DNA of 17,514 nt from a bacterium. GTDB taxonomy: Bacteria > Patescibacteria > JAEDAM01 > Absconditabacterales > Absconditicoccaceae. Positions 155-8,799 of the stretch are shown here, piece by piece. The notes beneath the pieces are model-generated. The model made no database searches, had not been told where the DNA came from, and was given only the letters and a program-made list of their open reading frames with translations. Where the stretch lies: contig JAFTEM010000004.1 of NCBI GenBank assembly GCA_017453665.1, positions 1 to 17,514 on the forward strand. Direction: 5' to 3'. The position numbers were made by a program, and so were the translations under genes. Position 1 is the first letter of the stretch, and each line of letters opens with the position of its first letter.

Positions 155-1165
155 TTAATCAATTTTATTTTCTTCTAAAAATTTATTGTACATTGTTAAA
201 TGCCCCTCTGAATTACTTCTAATAAATTTCAATTTCCAAGAAAGCTTAGAAAAGGGAATTTTCATTAGATTATTAAAAGTATCTTTATTATATGACATGT
301 TAAAAAATGTAGCCAAATCATACAACCTATCATTTTTAATATCAATACCATCAATTTCCCTTCTGCAATCTAGAAAATTTCTATATGCTATATAGATTGT
401 ATAATCTATTAAAAAATAATTAATCAAATATTGATAATCCTTGTGATACTGCATAAAAAAATCATAAACAAAATTAAATAATCTACTATTTGATTGTCAT
501 CAAATAAAAAATCAACACCGTCTCTCAAATCATCAGTATTCTTCGACTATTTTTTTTGAATAATTTGAATTCACCGACTTCCCTTCAAAATTAAAAAAAA
601 CATTACTATTAATAAACATTGTAGCATCCACCCAAATACCCCCATATTGTTTTAACAAAGCCATCCTTATTATATCAGACAAATGAGTAATACTAATCTT
701 ATGTTCATAAACTTTTTTAATGATAAAAGCTGGTAATGTAACATATTTTTCATAATTATCCTTATCTAACAAAACAATTTCATATCAACAATTATGTTTT
801 TTTACACTATTAATACAAAGTCTTACTAATTCAGGAGCATTATCTATTCATTGCCACCATAAAACCCAAATATTTTTACAATCTCTTTTTGCTGGGATAT
901 CCTTTAGTTTATAATCTGCCAAAAATCAAGCATATTTGTTTTCAAGAAAATTAATACTCAATTCCAACCTACGTCTCTTTATTGTTTTTCAAATCTGTTT
1001 TGGAAATATCAACGCAAAATCTCACCAAAAATTATAATGAGCTATCTTTAATCAAAAGCAAAATGAATCATATAAAAATTTCGAAATTTTATGGAGTAAA
1101 ATTCTTCAAATTTGGACAAATCACATCATACCCAACCTATTCTTTATAATAATAAGTTTCTTCAT
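155..1165 (-). CDS. capsular polysaccharide synthesis-type glycosyltransferase (GT32-like)
   Basis: Encodes 336 residues when TGA is Gly; two TGA-bounded pieces join into one protein. The pattern matches the capsular polysaccharide synthesis family (Caps_synth, related to GT32 sugar transferases). It has NIWVLWWQGIDNAPELV (about 98-114), then HLSDIIRMALLKQYGG (161-176) running into IWVDATMF, which holds the family's substrate/metal region, then FFIGGQSN and a YLINYFLIDY segment typical of the C-terminal half. The TGA in WWQG and the double TGA in FIGG fall on glycines expected in the family. By family knowledge it transfers a sugar from a nucleotide-sugar donor to a surface glycan at the cytoplasmic face; donor and acceptor cannot be read. 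It is the last gene of a three-gene transferase operon and starts 6 nt after the preceding stop. The ATG at 1165 has no Shine-Dalgarno; a later MM pair at 1127-1129 is an alternative start. The region is visibly AT-rich. Confidence 0.85.
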
Positions 1166-1171
1166 TTTTGA

Positions 1172-2089
1172 TTATAAATTAAAAATTTTAATAAAAACAA
1201 TTTTTATTATCCTATTTAATATTATAAAAAAGTATCTCGGATATTTTAAAAGAACCATAATATAAGTATACACAATTCACTTCTCTCACCATTTAATTTT
1301 ATTTTTATGATAAGATATAACATACTGTATATCTTGTTGAGGAAATCTTTCCTGAAGTGCTGTAAAAAACCTTAAATTATGTTGAAAATGTTCTGATAGA
1401 GAATATTCCTTTGTTTTTTGAGATAATGATCAATGTCAAATTCTATAAAATCAGAGCTTTTGGCATATAAACTGGATTTTTTCATCATGTAAAGAAAACA
1501 CTAATACAGTCCACCAGTCTTGAAACAAACCAATTCAAACAGGAAATGGTATAAGAATATCTATAAATTCAGCCCTAAACATTATTTCTGTAGATGTTAT
1601 ATGGTTCCACAAAGACAATTCTGAAAATTTATTTGACCAGATATCTCAATAAACCATAGATTTTGTCCTAAAATTATCATTTTGATTAATAACAACTAAA
1701 TCATGATAAGATAACGCACAATCTTTATGTGAACTCATAAAATTAACCTGGCACAAAAGTTTATTTCTCGTCCAAATATCATCAGCATCACAAAATGCAA
1801 TATAATCTCCAGTTGAAAAATATTTTTTTACTTCATACAATCAAACATTTATTGCAGAATTTACTCATCAGTTTTCTTTTTTTATTATAGAGACTTTTGA
1901 ATGTAGCCCATACACATCTACAAAATTTTGCGCAACTTCAAATGAATTATCCGTAGATCAATCATCTATTATAAATAAAAACCAATTTTCATATTCCTGG
2001 TAATATATAGACATTAACTGTTCCAAAAAAAATTTTCCTCAATTATACACAGGAAGCACTATATAAACACATTTTTTTGAACACTCCAT
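1172..2089 (-). CDS. family 2 glycosyltransferase
   Basis: Encodes 305 residues. The N-terminus reads CVYIVLPVYNGGKFFLEQL, followed by FLFIIDDGSTDNS (about 38-49) and IAFCDADDIW (97-106): the GT-A nucleotide-binding DDGSTD motif and the DxD metal-binding motif of GT2 enzymes. The glycine of DDGS is encoded by TGA. The second half has STEIMFRAEF and PFPVGIGLFQDWWTVLV, the acceptor-side pattern seen in rhamnosyl- and related transferases, and ends with a basic, hydrophobic tail that may touch the membrane. It presumably adds a sugar to a surface polysaccharide or O-antigen-like glycan; the exact sugar is not inferable. Start at ATG 2089, because the in-frame TAG at 2105-2107 lies just upstream with no other start between. 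It begins 5 nt after the previous transferase and ends 6 nt before the next, so the three are clearly co-transcribed. Confidence 0.88.
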
Positions 2090-2094
2090 ATTTA

Positions 2095-2901
2095 TTAAAT
2101 TTTTCTAAAACACTCATTACCTAACAATTTATATGGGAATCTTTCTAGACCATCAATAAAGCTCTCGACCTTCATTTTTTGCAACAAAGGATAAACAACC
2201 TTCCTCAAGCACTCCCAACAAACAACTCACAATCCATAAAATTTTCCATGCAATTCAAATATTGTTTCAAAATTCTTCCTATTAAACTTAAACCACTTAT
2301 AACTATAATTCTCAGCTCACCTTTTAATTCTATGTACTGTTAATGTCTCATCTATATTCCTTATCAAATTCTTTCATTTACAAAGTACTTTCTTCTGAAA
2401 ATAAGCATCTCACATATACACCCTATCTTCTACATAACGATATCATTCATTTCTAAACATCAATGATGGATGAATAGTGTAGTAGTTTTCTTTACATAAG
2501 TAGTATTCAAATCACTTATCATCTCATTCATACCACATCAAAGTCTTCGTTCAACAGCCAACATACTTTACATTCTCTTCTAAAAACCTCACTTGTTTCT
2601 CCAATTTCTCTGGTTTCCATAAATCATCATGATCTTGTATAGCAATATATTTCCCTTTAGCATGTTCTAACAAAAAATTCAATCATCTATATGGTCATAA
2701 CTTCCTACCTGAATCTATAATTCTAATCCTCTTATCTCCTATAGCTTTAATCAACTCAATAGTCCTATCTTCAGATTGATCATCATGAATCAAAATCTCA
2801 AAATGAGTATATGTCTGATTTAAACAAGATCTCAATGTCTCTTGTATCGTTTTTTCTGCATTATATGTGCATATTAGGACAGAAACTAGTGGATTACCCA
2901 T
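2095..2901 (-). CDS. family 2 glycosyltransferase
   Basis: Encodes 268 residues, first gene of the transferase operon. It opens with LVSVLICTYNAEKTIQETL, then EILIHDDQSEDRT (about 35-47) and YIAIQDHDDLW (85-95), so the GT2 DxxSxD and DxDD motifs are both present (D90, D92, D93). A following HPSLMFRNEGYRYVEDRVYM segment (around 150-170) matches the HPS.MFR...YR acceptor region of GT2 enzymes such as those of O-antigen and capsule clusters. The C-terminal 100 residues are basic and hydrophobic without a recognisable domain. The only in-frame ATG after the upstream TAG (2911-2913) is at 2901; a weak AGG lies about ten bases before it. The structured RNA and its U-tract end about 40 nt upstream, so expression of this operon could depend on read-through. 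Confidence 0.88.
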
Positions 2902-2914
2902 TCATAAGACCTAG

Positions 2915-2942
2915 AATATAAAGTAAACCACAGTTACCACAA
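2915..2942 (-). promoter_or_regulatory. possible promoter of the glycosyltransferase operon
   Basis: On the minus strand, TTGTGG (2937-2942) and TATATT (2915-2920) are 16 nt apart and would start transcription only a few bases before the ATG at 2901. The -10 is good and the -35 poor. If it is real, the operon does not depend on read-through from the RNA just upstream. Confidence 0.3.
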
Positions 2943-3032
2943 AAAAACAAATGCAACTTATAATCAATCGGTCGCCAAACCATTATATCAAACCCCTCTA
3001 ATTGAGTTTTTGATTAACTACAAGTTGCATTT
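2941..3032 (-). terminator. long-stem terminator at the end of the structured RNA
   Basis: The 21-bp stem (3012-3032 with 2949-2969; the distal 11 bp are perfect, AAATGCAACTT with AAGTTGCATTT) is followed on the minus strand by TTTGTTTTTTTG. The 42-nt loop is long for an intrinsic terminator and contains UUUGGCGACC, which can pair outside the loop. Stem plus U-tract fit termination, possibly conditional, about 40 nt before the first glycosyltransferase. Confidence 0.6.
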
Positions 3033-3190
3033 CTTTTTTGGCGACCACTAACCGTCTTTTTTTCTTTTAATTAAAAAAGGCGATTAACACTGTAGTCGCC
3101 AAACTATAAATACTCTTCCCGTGTAGAAAAACGTATCGAGCAGTATTAACCGCCTTTATACCCACACGAAAAGAAGTCGCATTGAGAAAA
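2941..3190 (-). ncRNA. structured RNA with interleaved helices and terminal U-tract; no known family recognised
   Basis: Read on the minus strand, this gap folds into a chain of long helices. (a) 3162-3172 pairs with 3116-3126 (11 bp). (b) 3146-3157 pairs with 3076-3087 (12 bp), interleaved with (a). (c) Alternatively 3073-3087 pairs locally with 3048-3063 (about 15 bp, one mismatch). (d) GGUCGCCAAA at 3037-3046 can pair with UUUGGCGACU at 3094-3103 or with UUUGGCGACC at 2970-2979. (e) A 21-bp terminal stem, 3012-3032 with 2949-2969, is followed by UUUGUUUUUUUG. Helices a to c, the upstream option of d, and e each contain at least one G-U pair that would be an A-C mismatch on the plus strand, so the RNA is transcribed leftward. 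The option pairing 3037-3046 with 2970-2979 makes a pseudoknot with the terminal stem. I see no tmRNA tRNA-like ends, RNase P core, SRP or 6S signature. It may be an independent small RNA or the leader of the glycosyltransferase operon that starts at 2901. Confidence 0.72.
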
Positions 3191-3193
3191 ACA

Positions 3194-3221
3194 TTTATAA
3201 TTTGGCACATTCAATATACAA
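3194..3221 (-). promoter_or_regulatory. likely promoter of the structured RNA
   Basis: Minus-strand TTGTAT (3216-3221) and TATAAA (3194-3199) are 16 nt apart, a reasonable sigma-70-type pair. It would start an RNA near 3187-3190, just before the first helix (3172). No equally good pair lies between the upstream terminator (3313-3350) and this point. Confidence 0.5.
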
Positions 3222-3263
3222 AAAAGATAACAGAAATAAAGACATTTTCATAAGATTTTCCAA

Positions 3264-3287
3264 AAGTTTTAGCTGTAGCTAAAACTT
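3264..3287. repeat. perfect 11-bp inverted repeat with 2-nt centre
   Basis: AAGTTTTAGCT, GT, AGCTAAAACTT: a perfect palindrome between the mtnN terminator and the promoter of the structured RNA. It could be a protein-binding site, since it lies about 45 bp upstream of the -35 box, or a second terminator stem. No long U-run follows on either strand, so a DNA-binding role seems more likely. Confidence 0.5.
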
Positions 3288-3312
3288 GCAAAAGAAAAGA
3301 AAATAATAAATT

Positions 3313-3350
3313 AAAAAAAGCATGATATCCAAATATCATAGATACCATGC
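3313..3350 (-). terminator. intrinsic terminator after mtnN
   Basis: On the minus strand GCATGGTATC (3341-3350) pairs with GATATCATGC (3320-3329) over 10 bp including one G-U, with an 11-nt loop, followed at once by TTTTTTT (3313-3319). It sits about 30 nt past the mtnN stop and closes the gene series that begins at rel. Confidence 0.85.
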
Positions 3351-3379
3351 CAACAAATTTTCTTTACATTATACACCCC

Positions 3380-4051
3380 TTACATCAACATTTTAACAAT
3401 CTTATCCAACACAACCAAACTATTTTTCATAGCAAAATCCAAATTATTCTCATGCGCAGTAATCGCATCAGCATCAGCTCAATCAGATACCGCTTTAATA
3501 GTAAACATCTTATCTTCTAACCCATATTCACGAGCAACACTAGCAATCGCAAAAGCCTCCATATCAGCAACATCTCATCAAGTAACTCTTCTCAACTCCT
3601 CAGCTCTTTCTTTATCATCAATAAAAGCATCTCAGGTAGCACAAACACCTCCTTTATGGAATCAAAAATCTATTCAAAAAATCTCAATCTCATCTCCTCA
3701 ATTTACATAAAGAGGCTTTTTAATGTAATCCAAATGTTCTCCTCCAAAAGGAAGATACATATCATGTTGCAAAATCTCTTTTATCAAAAACACATCTCAA
3801 ATAGCCACTTCATTTCCTCTAAGATTTCCAGCAATTCAAATATTAACAAGATAATCAACCCCATACTTCTCTATCAACCCAGCCGTTCAAAAACTAGCTT
3901 GAATTTTTCAAATTCCTGTTAAAACAAGTACAATATTCTCTCATTCATAAAAAGTAAGATGACCTAACCTCTCTTTCTCCTCCAAATCATATGCAGCAAT
4001 AATATGTTCTGCTTCCTCATCCATAGCAGTAATAATACCTATTTTTTTCAT
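3380..4051 (-). CDS. mtnN: 5'-methylthioadenosine/S-adenosylhomocysteine nucleosidase
   Basis: Encodes 223 residues, close to the usual 230. It cleaves adenine from MTA, SAH and 5'-deoxyadenosine, feeding methionine and adenine salvage and removing SAH. Family landmarks in order: MKKIGIITAMDEEAEHI with the catalytic-base Glu at E12, LTGIGKIQASFGTAGLI (44-60), VDYLVNIGIAGNL (65-77), CATGDAFI (137-144), VADMEAFAIASVA (161-173) with the Met-Glu pair that binds ribose (M164, E165), and KAVSDGADAD (186-195) with the catalytic Asp D190. Many of these glycines, including those in GIGK, NIGIAG, CATGD and SDGAD, are TGA codons, so the gene is unreadable with the standard code. It starts 12 nt after nrdR and is followed by a strong terminator. 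In a reduced genome it suggests that SAM chemistry is retained. Confidence 0.95.
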
Positions 4052-6296: not shown

Positions 6297-7505
6297 CTAT
6301 AAGAATGTATTATTTAAATACAAGTTGGGTTGAACTTTTTTTTCTATTACGCTCCAATAAGCATTGTCATCCATAAACCTCTCTATCTTTCAAACAGAAT
6401 CTTCTAAAACAGTAAAATTCTGAACTAATCAACAACTATCTTGGCGACAATTTTTTTGGAATTCATTATCAAAAACCGGAATAAGATGAGCATCATATGC
6501 TAAAGAATCCTCTCAATCTCAAAAAGCCAGATCCATATAGTCAAGGATAAACTGAATCGCCATATCATAATGCTGACTATTTGTAGGGATAACAAATCAA
6601 TAAAGTCTTACAAAAGGAAGTTTCCCTTCATAAGGATAGGTCTTAGAAACTAAAACATCTTCAAACCCTTTATTATATGTAGACTTAAATCCCCAAGCAA
6701 CTCAAAGAAGATTCTTCTCTAAAAGACATGAAAGAGGCTGTTCTTTACATTTTTCTGAACTTCATTGAATAGAAGCTAATAATTTCTTTTGTGTCTCTTG
6801 TGATGCTGTCGTAAAATCTACCCAATTACTAAATTCTCAAATATCATTTACCTCAATGAAATCAATAATCTGCTGTGCTGAAATAATACTATTATCCAAC
6901 ACCGAAGGACTATCAGAAACTCAAAAATTAAATGAAAGATATGAACGTGTTGGATTTCGATTACTAGACCCCTCAATTAATCCATCAGCACCATCTCCCA
7001 AACTAGATAATCCATACATTACAGGAAGATCAATTCCAAAAGGCAAGAACTCTTTATGATTTTCAACAAATGTTTTTAATTGAGAAATAAACAAAGGACT
7101 AATTTCTTCTTGGAAACCAATATTCTCAAGAATACTGACACCCGTTAAAAAATCGTATGGTAAAAGAAGTAAATCCGCACTAACACCACTCCATTCATTA
7201 GGTAATTCAACTTCTACTACCTCAATATCTCCTCAATGTGTTGATTTAAACCAATCAATAAGTGCATCCAAAGATGTTTTCTGATCTTTCCATACAGCAA
7301 TACGAAGTGTCTCATCAAATTGAGGAACCTCATATACATCTTCTTCTATTTCTCAATCTTCATCAACACTAGCCTCCGTAGTTTCTATTTCTGATCCATC
7401 ATTATCTTTATCACTACTAGTTCCCCAAGGAACAAAAAAAACAAACAAAGTACATAAAAATCAAAATATCGCCAAAAAAAGTACTTGTCTCAAATCACTT
7501 CTCAT
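6297..7505 (-). CDS. membrane-anchored solute-binding-like protein
   Basis: Encodes 402 residues. One N-terminal hydrophobic helix (VLFLAIFGFLCTLFVFFVPW, about 8-27) lacks a convincing lipobox, so it looks like an uncleaved anchor. A very acidic linker follows (about 30-62). The outer part resembles the MalE-type extracellular solute-binding fold: ETLRIAVWKDQK near the start, VEVELPNEWSGVSADLLLLP with the AD.LL.P pattern, PLFISQLKTFV, and late in the protein LPFVRLYGFVIPTNSQHYDM then AIQFILDYMD, as in the W.Fv.P..S.....A..F. region of sugar binders. The C-terminus runs past the domain to a TAG at 6297-6299. No permease or ATPase gene is near, so it may bind a ligand for another purpose, for example as a surface adhesin or sensor. 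It starts 7 nt after the pilin-like gene, with no Shine-Dalgarno. Confidence 0.6.
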
Positions 7506-7512
7506 CTGTTAA

Positions 7513-8799
7513 TTAGAAAATAATAGTAAAATTTCAAAGCGCATTATCATCCATAGTAGGTTTCTTAACCTGTAGTTTTATATTATATTTTCAAACCTTT
7601 CATTCTCATTTGATAGTGTAATATTGATCAGTTCACCTTAATCCATTAAAAGAGAATCTATACTCCAAAAATGGATATAAACTATGCTTACTCGTCGCAT
7701 TGGTCCGTAATAAATTTATTAGTTCAAAGCTTAAATACGGACGTGAAACATTAGTCGAAGAAATAACACTTGTAAATCATCAAAGTGCTTTTAAAGCAGA
7801 TGCCTGTGAAGAAATAACATTCAATCATGTCATATTATCTCCTTGAGCTCCCTGAATATTAAAATTATTTACTTGTTCCGAACCTCAAAACACAACAGTA
7901 GTCTTTTGATCTCACAACGTTCAATTCACCTGAGTACCAGCCAAATATCATTTATTAGTATATTGATTTATATTATATTTTCTAATAACAGAATCTCTAT
8001 TCCCATTCACAGAATATGAAGTACTAGAAACGTTTGTTGATTCATTTGGGATTATAGAGAACTCCGTCTTTTGTCCCAAATTACTATACCATCATTTTAA
8101 AACCCAATCAATCATAGGCTGATATTCACTTCTTGTCTGATCTTTTTCTCAAGGACAAGAAGTACTTTTACACAAGATAGCACAATCAGTACAAGTAGAA
8201 GTAGCTTCTTTTATTCTTTTATACAAATAAGGATTCAACCTAAATTCTCATGAGACACCATTAGTAAGTTTACCCGGATTTGAAGATGACTTCACATAAT
8301 AAGAAGAACTATCAATATCTCACAATGACTTATTTAAAGAGATTAACACCGTTTGATTATAATTAATCATATTATAATTCTCTGAATTTAGTCATGATTC
8401 AACTAATATAGGCTCTACATCTCAATTCTTTGCCTTAGGAATGGTTTCTGTCGTAGCATCAACCTCCCAATAAAGTGATGTAGCTCAAGAATTTCAATAA
8501 GAAAAGAGATCTCCTATCCAATAATCTCAAGTATTTCCGACATTCAAATGTGTATTCGATGATGGCTGATATTTCCATCCAGATTTTCAATTAAATCAAT
8601 AGGTTTCACCATCTGTTCAATGCCCTGCATATTTCACTGCCAATGACCCCCTTTCTATAGCAGAAATTGCAGCATAATACGCAGCAGAATATTGCGCAAC
8701 ATTTCAATAAGAATTAGAAAACGGAATAAAACTAGAAAAAAGTGCAAACATCATTGCAACACTAATAATAATCACAACAAGCGTCAATCATAATAACAT
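7513..8799 (-). CDS. pilin-like (PilX-type) surface protein, putative
   Basis: Encodes 428 residues, unusually rich in TGA glycines, Ser, Asn and Thr. The N-terminus MLLGLTLVVIIISVAMMFAL (1-20) is a single hydrophobic helix. It is followed by QYSAAYYAAISAIERGSLAV (37-56), which resembles the amphipathic, AE-rich extension of PilX-like minor pilins. The rest is a large polar domain with a cysteine cluster (C203, C206, C210, C215) that could form disulfides, and a beta-rich end (KYNIKLQVKKPTMDDNALG). I infer an extracellular adhesin or minor pilin; no classic prepilin cleavage site (G followed by FTLIE) is visible. The start is ATG 8799; six codons between it and the upstream TAG (8821-8823) would add KGGIRKK but offer only rare starts. 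It lies 26 nt after the zinc-ribbon gene and 7 nt before the solute-binding-like gene. Confidence 0.55.

Follow-up and report, generated by a model that had tools for sequence, protein, structure and literature searches.

A candidate promoter-linked leader RNA family upstream of surface and restriction-modification genes in a UGA-glycine bacterial lineage

The minus strand of the window, by which we mean the whole stretch of 17,514 nucleotides that was analysed, carries two units of one structured-RNA family at 3206–2941. The stretch 2941–3206 is flanked by a nucleosidase gene (PF01048) and by a glycan operon on the same strand. The family was neither matched in Rfam 15 nor described in the literature that we searched and, as judged from the sequences compared, it is a promoter-linked leader. 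Our preferred reading, which we rate at somewhat better than even, is that this 5′ leader controls accessory genes as a conditional terminator (attenuator). The structure, the strand and the position as a leader are well supported by the comparison of family members, and we infer termination at the U-run and the regulation of two states.

The minus strand of 2920–3200 folds with −88.6 kcal/mol, compared to −57.2 ± 4.3 for shuffled sequences (z −7.3; 0 of 200 shuffles folded as well), and the plus strand of the same region folds less well (z −3.9). The helices that the initial annotation of this DNA had proposed were recovered. Helix 3162–3172/3116–3126 is part of a 14-bp inner stem (3162–3175/3113–3126) in the predicted folds, helix 3146–3157/3076–3087 lies within a 17-nt pair (3141–3157/3076–3092) that is 88% complementary, helix 3037–3046/2970–2979 is paired at 10 of 10 positions and the terminal stem (2942–2969/3012–3039) extends over 28 nt (86%). 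Both interleavings that had been described as possible pseudoknots represent the conserved core of the RNA family, namely the anchor/tail helix of unit 1 and unit 2. A structured RNA is indeed present in the box 2941–3190 that had been drawn around it, but its true extent is longer, with the 5′ end at 3206 and a −10 box at 3218–3213. The family nature of the element, its two units, the built-in promoter and the relatives in front of restriction-modification and S-layer genes had been missed.

In the whole window, Rfam 15 gave no match at the gathering score, and a permissive search of 2800–3400 gave 19 matches, all far below gathering. The absence of a tmRNA from the window was confirmed, and neither a tRNA nor a match to any Rfam family was found there. 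When 20 member-holding loci were searched with Rfam 15, five tRNAs and nothing else were found. Among the matches listed in searches of the literature on Gracilibacteria/Absconditabacteria and candidate phyla radiation RNAs, which include PMC11665869 and PMC12045711, the portions accessible to us do not describe the family. The parts of the two units and the neighbouring features are the following:

155..1165, minus strand: capsular polysaccharide synthesis protein (PF05704, E 1.2e-69)
1172..2089, minus strand: second glycosyltransferase (PF00535, E 5.6e-21)
2095..2901, minus strand: family 2 glycosyltransferase, the operon's first gene 3′ of the element (PF00535, E 1.3e-33)
3035-3012; 2969-2949; 2947-2941, minus strand: unit 2 anchor; tail; U7 (R1 match)
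3046-3037 / 2979-2970, minus strand: unit 2 outer stem GGUCGCCAAA / UUUGGCGACC (complementarity)
3037..3060, minus strand: second copies of the anchor-like strand GACGGUUAGUG and of GUCGCCAAA (complementarity)
3073..3092, minus strand: unit 1 tail CAGUGUUAAUCGCC followed by U6, complementary to the anchor (complementarity, R1 match)
3098..3206, minus strand: unit 1 hairpin, 109 nt (fold and family comparison)
3141..3158, minus strand: unit 1 anchor UAAAGGCGGUUAAUACUG at the hairpin apex (complementarity to the tail, R1 match)
3175-3162 / 3126-3113, minus strand: unit 1 inner stem (predicted fold)
3206-3192 / 3112-3098, minus strand: unit 1 closing stem GCCAAAUUAUAAAUG / ..AUUUAUAGUUUGGC (predicted fold, family comparison)
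3213..3218, minus strand: unit 1 −10 box TATATT, at −12 to −7 before GCC (in phase with the family)
3319..3351, minus strand: terminator-like hairpin after the nucleosidase gene and before the element (terminator scan)

Unit 1 follows the full family plan but has a poor −35: this region (3240–3235, TTTATT) is weak, the TTG of the family is absent from the window copy, and the unit 1 promoter was not listed in a generic promoter scan of the window. The model R1 matches unit 1 at 3073–3158 with 69 bits, unit 1 being among the sequences from which R1 was built. Unit 2, which was not used for R1, is matched by it at 2946–3033 with 41 bits (E 1.9e-6); a second model, R2, which includes unit 2, gives 51.5 bits. 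The unit 2 anchor is located directly 3′ of the outer strand, and the outer stem and the anchor/tail helix interleave. No promoter of its own was seen by eye for unit 2, and a generic terminator scan listed neither the unit 1 nor the unit 2 U-run. Of the second copies at 3037–3060, the closing-strand copy reaches z 5.9 and the anchor copy only z 1.7. As modelled, these strands could act as rival partners for the tail and box of unit 1, and the second GUCGCCAAA copy is at the same time the outer 5′ strand of unit 2. Among 56 family members, second closing-strand copies are significant (z > 2.5) in 14 and second anchor copies in 13. A tandem similar to that of the window is found in the genome G003 (L117). 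The sequence TATAATGG (minus strand, window 2980–2987) in the unit 2 loop also occurs in L117 despite an otherwise different loop, and could be a second −10 box.

The relatives were found by searches of increasing reach. With blastn over 20 related genomes we obtained one long match (G003, E 8e-15), a few short matches with E between 1e-6 and 1e-3, and numerous others no better than chance, and reading these matches side by side revealed a common plan. The 16 first members were aligned from anchor to tail (A2). With R1, 12 of 49 genomes from the order gave a match at E ≤ 0.1, the weakest probably by chance, as did 27 of 353 from the class at E ≤ 0.01, the class being deduced from named contigs. 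R2 was built from 56 matches and gave 98 matches in 45 of the 353 genomes; in a phylum sample it matched two of 379 genomes, the centre genome G003 and G538. All genome counts are lower bounds, since searches over 40 genomes use strict filters by which weak matches are lost, and the model E-values are rough. Seven of 44 loci (L215, L222, L223, L226, L229, L239 and L240) went unmatched by R2 at E ≤ 0.01, though these places had matched in the genome scan. The R2 finds that were not used in building R2 form a set of 41 further elements, in which L203, L210 and L217 are registered 1–2 nt off and from which L235 was left out at a locus edge; L137 was excluded because it lies within a coding frame. 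In G538, the element L244 (R2 E 2.9e-7) has a fully paired closing stem, GCAAAACUACAAU/AUUGUAGUUUUGC, and a phased −10.

From 5′ to 3′, a unit consists of a sigma-70-like promoter, GCCAAA, a hairpin of about 90–140 nt with an apical anchor, UUUGGCGAC, a tail and a U-run. The hairpin is closed by GCCAAA/UUUGGC, and UUUGGCGAC closes the stem on the 3′ side. The −10 box is located 6 nt 5′ of GCCAAA (−12 to −7). A −10 of the form TANNN[TG] is in phase in 49 of 56 members, compared to 4.0% at random places, and TTG is found at about −34 (−36 to −33) in 51 of 56 (control 8.8%); this phase was noticed only once the structure had already been defined. Of the 41 further elements, 32 have a −10 and 36 a TTG at the phased position. 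A run of at least four T near the tail end is present in 55 of 56 members and 38 of 41 further elements (control 17.7%), a good U-run being absent in L171 6511 and three L238 units. The anchor centre lies at 0.41–0.61 of the hairpin in all 56 members, with a mean complementarity score of 27.9 (minimum 12) compared to 10.5 for shuffled interiors; the anchor of L136, with a score of 12, is unconvincing. Invariant columns of A2, which covers 16 sequences from anchor to tail only, are confined to three elements: anchor, GUUUGGCGACU box and tail.

The 5′ strand of the closing stem lies outside both R1 and R2. In the 41 further elements this stem is 95.1% paired, and the seven pairs beyond GCCAAA are 94.1% paired, compared to 59.5% with another element's 3′ strand when the 5′ partner was re-optimised; in the other closing-stem controls, for the sets of 56 and 41, the 5′ partner was not re-optimised. 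The closing stems of the 56 members contain 69 G-U pairs, no A-C and 37 other mispairs, and those of the 41 further elements contain 41 G-U and 3 A-C; L132 and L133 are out of register in the count for the 56 and in the anchor-position scores. This imbalance fixes the strand and speaks for an RNA (or for one strand of DNA). It also bears out the view that the G-U pairs make sense only on the minus strand.

The tail is complementary to the anchor over 14–18 bp. An upstream segment complementary to the tail is present in 16 of the 16 first members. Because this segment had been picked by complementarity, we tested A2 for covariation: 94.8% of anchor/tail cells are paired and 43 cells show two-sided change, compared to 13.9 in shuffles and 1–9 in slid registers, and the number of pairs with two-sided change is seven, a count that 30 of 500 shuffles also reached. 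In A4, an alignment of 55 distinct members that was fitted to the model, 92.1% of the cells are paired (64.4% when shuffled), 266 cells show two-sided change (65.5 when shuffled, 35–44 in slid registers) and such changes occur at 18 of 18 anchor/tail pairs. The covariation in relatives by which the initial annotation had suggested judging the helices is thus strong. In the 16 first members the tail could also self-fold as a plain terminator stem, which is 98.2% paired with 0 two-sided changes. By reading, several more distant members are without this stem, and therefore the anchor/tail helix was taken as the general feature.

Orientation was counted for 89 elements, three high-GC loci being set aside (the units of L238, L241 and L185 left out). 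A downstream neighbour is present in 82 of the 89, on the same strand in 78; the upstream neighbours are on the same strand in 47 cases and on the opposite strand in 39. Since orientation tracks the downstream gene and not the upstream one, a cis-acting leader would be the better half of the earlier proposal of a new small RNA or cis-regulatory leader, which is supported as a whole by the lack of an Rfam match, the compensatory change and this orientation. The next ATG frame (at least 60 aa) starts 12–23 nt past the model end in 22 of 88 cases, and the others are spread up to 424 nt (limit 450). Distances of this kind would agree better with control exerted at the U-run than with a masked ribosome site.

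Of the 88 downstream frames, 72 were taken as set A5. Among these 72 proteins we found 15 with EcoRI_methylase, 8 with S-layer homology (SLH), 3 with N6_N4_Mtase and 3 with the pilin methylation motif, as well as 2 site-specific recombinases; Tsp45I, MmeI, a C-5 methylase, ResIII and others occur as singles among the 25 of 51 families listed. In the class, EcoRI-type methylase gave 37 matches in 32 of 353 genomes. An R2 match (E ≤ 0.003) is located just upstream at 15 of 30 of these methylase loci, 7 of the 15 having themselves gone into R2. Such a match was found at 0 of 8 methylase loci without an in-frame TGA compared to 15 of 22 with TGA, so the link is with recoded lineages. In addition, L291 and L297 have R2 at E 0.01–0.02 upstream of the methylase, and L282 and L304 have the closing stem and a phased −10 despite giving no R2 match. 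L291, L297 and L299 have in common, upstream of EcoRI-type methylases, the closing stem CGAGGUUUU../..AAAACUCG and AAUUGCC-AU6 at the end of the tail, and are possibly a variant subfamily. In L116, L119 and L121, a second terminator-like hairpin (AAAUAGUUCGGCUGA ... AGUCGCUAAACUAUUUU) lies between the element and the methylase gene, with a 3′ arm that is able to pair with UUUGGCGAC of the element.

The earlier proposal that the window itself belongs to a recoded lineage is supported: code 25 (UGA = Gly) is consistent with its reading frames. Its ribosomal protein S4 shows 69–71% to entries named Absconditabacterales and 84–95% to other relatives. The gene order of the window is conserved in L001–L003 only up to adk, and a first genome scan with the window nucleosidase as query gave no match. 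In genome G001 the order of the two genes preceding the nucleosidase is kept, and a convergent gene follows immediately after it. At the end of this orthologous nucleosidase gene in G001 we found no R2 match and no match to a glycosyltransferase, and the window glycosyltransferase had no match in G001–G003 at E ≤ 1e-10 in a search that ran without a positive control. From the G001 nucleosidase end, the element appears to travel with the accessory operon.

For the attenuator we propose the following scheme. RNA polymerase would start at about the G of GCCAAA, as the phased promoter suggests, and the first ~110 nt would form the long hairpin with the anchor displayed in a small apical hairpin. 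Once made, the tail could pair with the anchor in a 14–18 bp helix beside the U-run; if the anchor is kept in its local apical hairpin, the tail would remain free or self-folded. The anchor would thus be one strand with two partners, one early and local, the other late and beside the U-run, and the balance of the two states would set whether polymerase stops at the U-run or reads through into the next gene. In the window, the glycan operon would stand under two such units in series. Candidates for what tips the balance are a protein, polymerase speed, temperature or another copy's tail.

Two properties expected of an attenuator are seen in the sequences: the element is co-directional with the gene (78 of 82) and has a phased promoter upstream, represented in the window copy by a −10 with a poor −35. 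The two exclusive anchor pairings are predicted ones: in 55 of 56 members a local apical hairpin that takes in four or more nt of the anchor and, as the alternative, the anchor:tail helix. In the 56 members, opening the apical hairpin costs 9.2 kcal/mol on average and anchor:tail pairing gives −23.5; before any pseudoknot penalty, the paired state comes out ahead by a mean of 9.4, with a spread of −16.6 to +9.7. Some points speak against attenuation. As modelled, the whole hairpin could coexist with the complete anchor:tail helix only by bending or opening in part. A promoter on each tandem unit is odd for an efficient terminator, and in the sequences the plain terminator stem of the tail appears without covariation and some units without a good U-run. 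Nor is a conserved ligand pocket apparent in the aligned columns, which run from anchor to tail.

An mRNA stabiliser or translation element, in which the 5′ hairpin protects the end, the U-run or AU-rich stretch aids ribosome loading and the anchor/tail pairing merely shapes the 5′ end, is in our view unlikely. It would suit a stem that starts at about the inferred first nucleotide, the surface proteins encoded by some downstream genes (the 8 SLH and 3 pilin methylation motif proteins of the 72) and the 22 of 88 cases with an ATG 12–23 nt past the model end, but it leaves the covarying anchor/tail helix and the local apical competitor unexplained, and the ATG distances reach hundreds of nt.

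We consider it distinctly improbable that the element is an independent trans-acting sRNA, a gene of ~150 nt that ends at the U-run and perhaps targets the anchors of other copies, read-through being incidental. Most units do have their own promoter and U-run, tandem units occur (up to six in G065), and tails can pair with the anchors of other members, the own hairpin being the best partner for just 14 of 56 tails. This low rank may, however, reflect only that relatives share anchor and tail words, and both the shared orientation of element and downstream gene (78 of 82) and the element's place upstream of 15 of 30 EcoRI-type methylase loci count against an independent gene.

The tandem units are best seen in the high-GC genome G065 (L265–L269, L238 and L241), with up to six in 1.5 kb at a spacing of 248–297 nt. 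Among 15 G065 units, identity is 0.78, 0.75 and 0.76 in promoter, spacer and tail, compared to 0.56–0.60 when shuffled, and the arms are at chance (0.58 compared to 0.55–0.56). When one G065 hairpin was compared with its own genome, the only full match was to itself and the rest were short apex matches and chance-level ones. There is a slim chance that such units are a stand-alone RNA device with actively diversified arms, that is, orthogonal bistable on/off switches or variable recognition sequences; misfolding between equal-armed neighbours is a possible pressure on the arms. If so, each accessory gene or array would fire independently, giving RNA-based, phase-variation-like diversity in the surface coat and in DNA methylation, and truly diversified arms would be a new way to make independent switches. 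By eye, short ATG-to-stop frames (e.g. ATG AAT ACA TCA TAA) recur after several G065 tails.

A DNA element read as a folded single strand (an integron attC-like site, a transposon end or a recombination site) is most improbable. The conserved ends with a freely variable middle, the tandem arrays, the link to accessory genes and the G001 nucleosidase end without R2 or glycosyltransferase match would agree with it, but the unit includes a phased promoter, the tail beyond the hairpin covaries and the orientation follows the downstream gene. Integron attC sites likewise have a conserved structure, variable arms and arrays, and their boxes read RYYYAAC / GTTRRRY. In contrast, 38 of 56 members start with GCCAAAU, the common ends GCCAAAU / GUUUGGC fit no attC box, and the unit includes a promoter and a U-run tail. 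A coding role was rejected, as the 93-aa frame at 3067–3348 has no Pfam match and crosses the terminator-like hairpin. A guide RNA was rejected likewise: one G065 hairpin has no full match elsewhere in its own genome, and two window words gave 0 exact IMG/VR matches. A phage origin was also rejected. In IMG/VR, 12 contigs were picked out by a pattern scan, the eight R1 matches in them are nearly all plain terminator-like hairpins, and in the best of them, L149 (E 0.0066), the closing stem is not formed in the predicted fold; IMG/VR thus contained no convincing family member.

In attenuation leaders, such as riboswitch expression platforms and those of the trp/pyr type, competing hairpins control transcription. 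The family resembles them in being a 5′ leader with exclusive pairings, a U-run before the gene and compensatory evolution. It differs in that no conserved ligand pocket is seen, the apex of a long hairpin with sequence-variable arms supplies the competing strand, the promoter is locked to the element and the targets are unrelated accessory genes. In the replication leaders of IncI-type plasmids, which are under pseudoknot/antisense control, an apical loop pairs with a distant strand. This pairing and the words CGCCAA/UUGGCG are shared with the family, whereas here the element is multi-copy, precedes unrelated genes and carries the words in its closing stem. TIGR arrays, which also occur in Patescibacteria, consist of tandem units with variable parts as well and encode 36-nt dual-spacer RNA units beside Nop-domain (Tas) proteins (PMC12045711). 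Compared to these 36-nt RNAs, the units here are ~265 nt long (G065 spacing 248–297 nt), each with a promoter and self-complementary arms.

Regulation in Patescibacteria is apparently little explored. The family, large and recognisable, ties a fixed promoter and a folded leader to restriction-modification, S-layer, pilin and glycan genes, and the surface and defence functions encoded downstream are expected to matter for host-attached cells. The element may also lend itself as a portable part for controlling expression in bacteria for which few genetic tools exist.

Further observations were made in the window. A perfect 11-bp inverted repeat, AAGTTTTAGCT/AGCTAAAACTT, is located at 3264–3287, between the nucleosidase terminator and the promoter of the element. 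Furthermore, 6297–7505 encodes a protein of 402 aa and 7513–8799 one of 428 aa; neither matches Pfam at E ≤ 0.001, and the 428-aa protein has a hydrophobic segment at its start.
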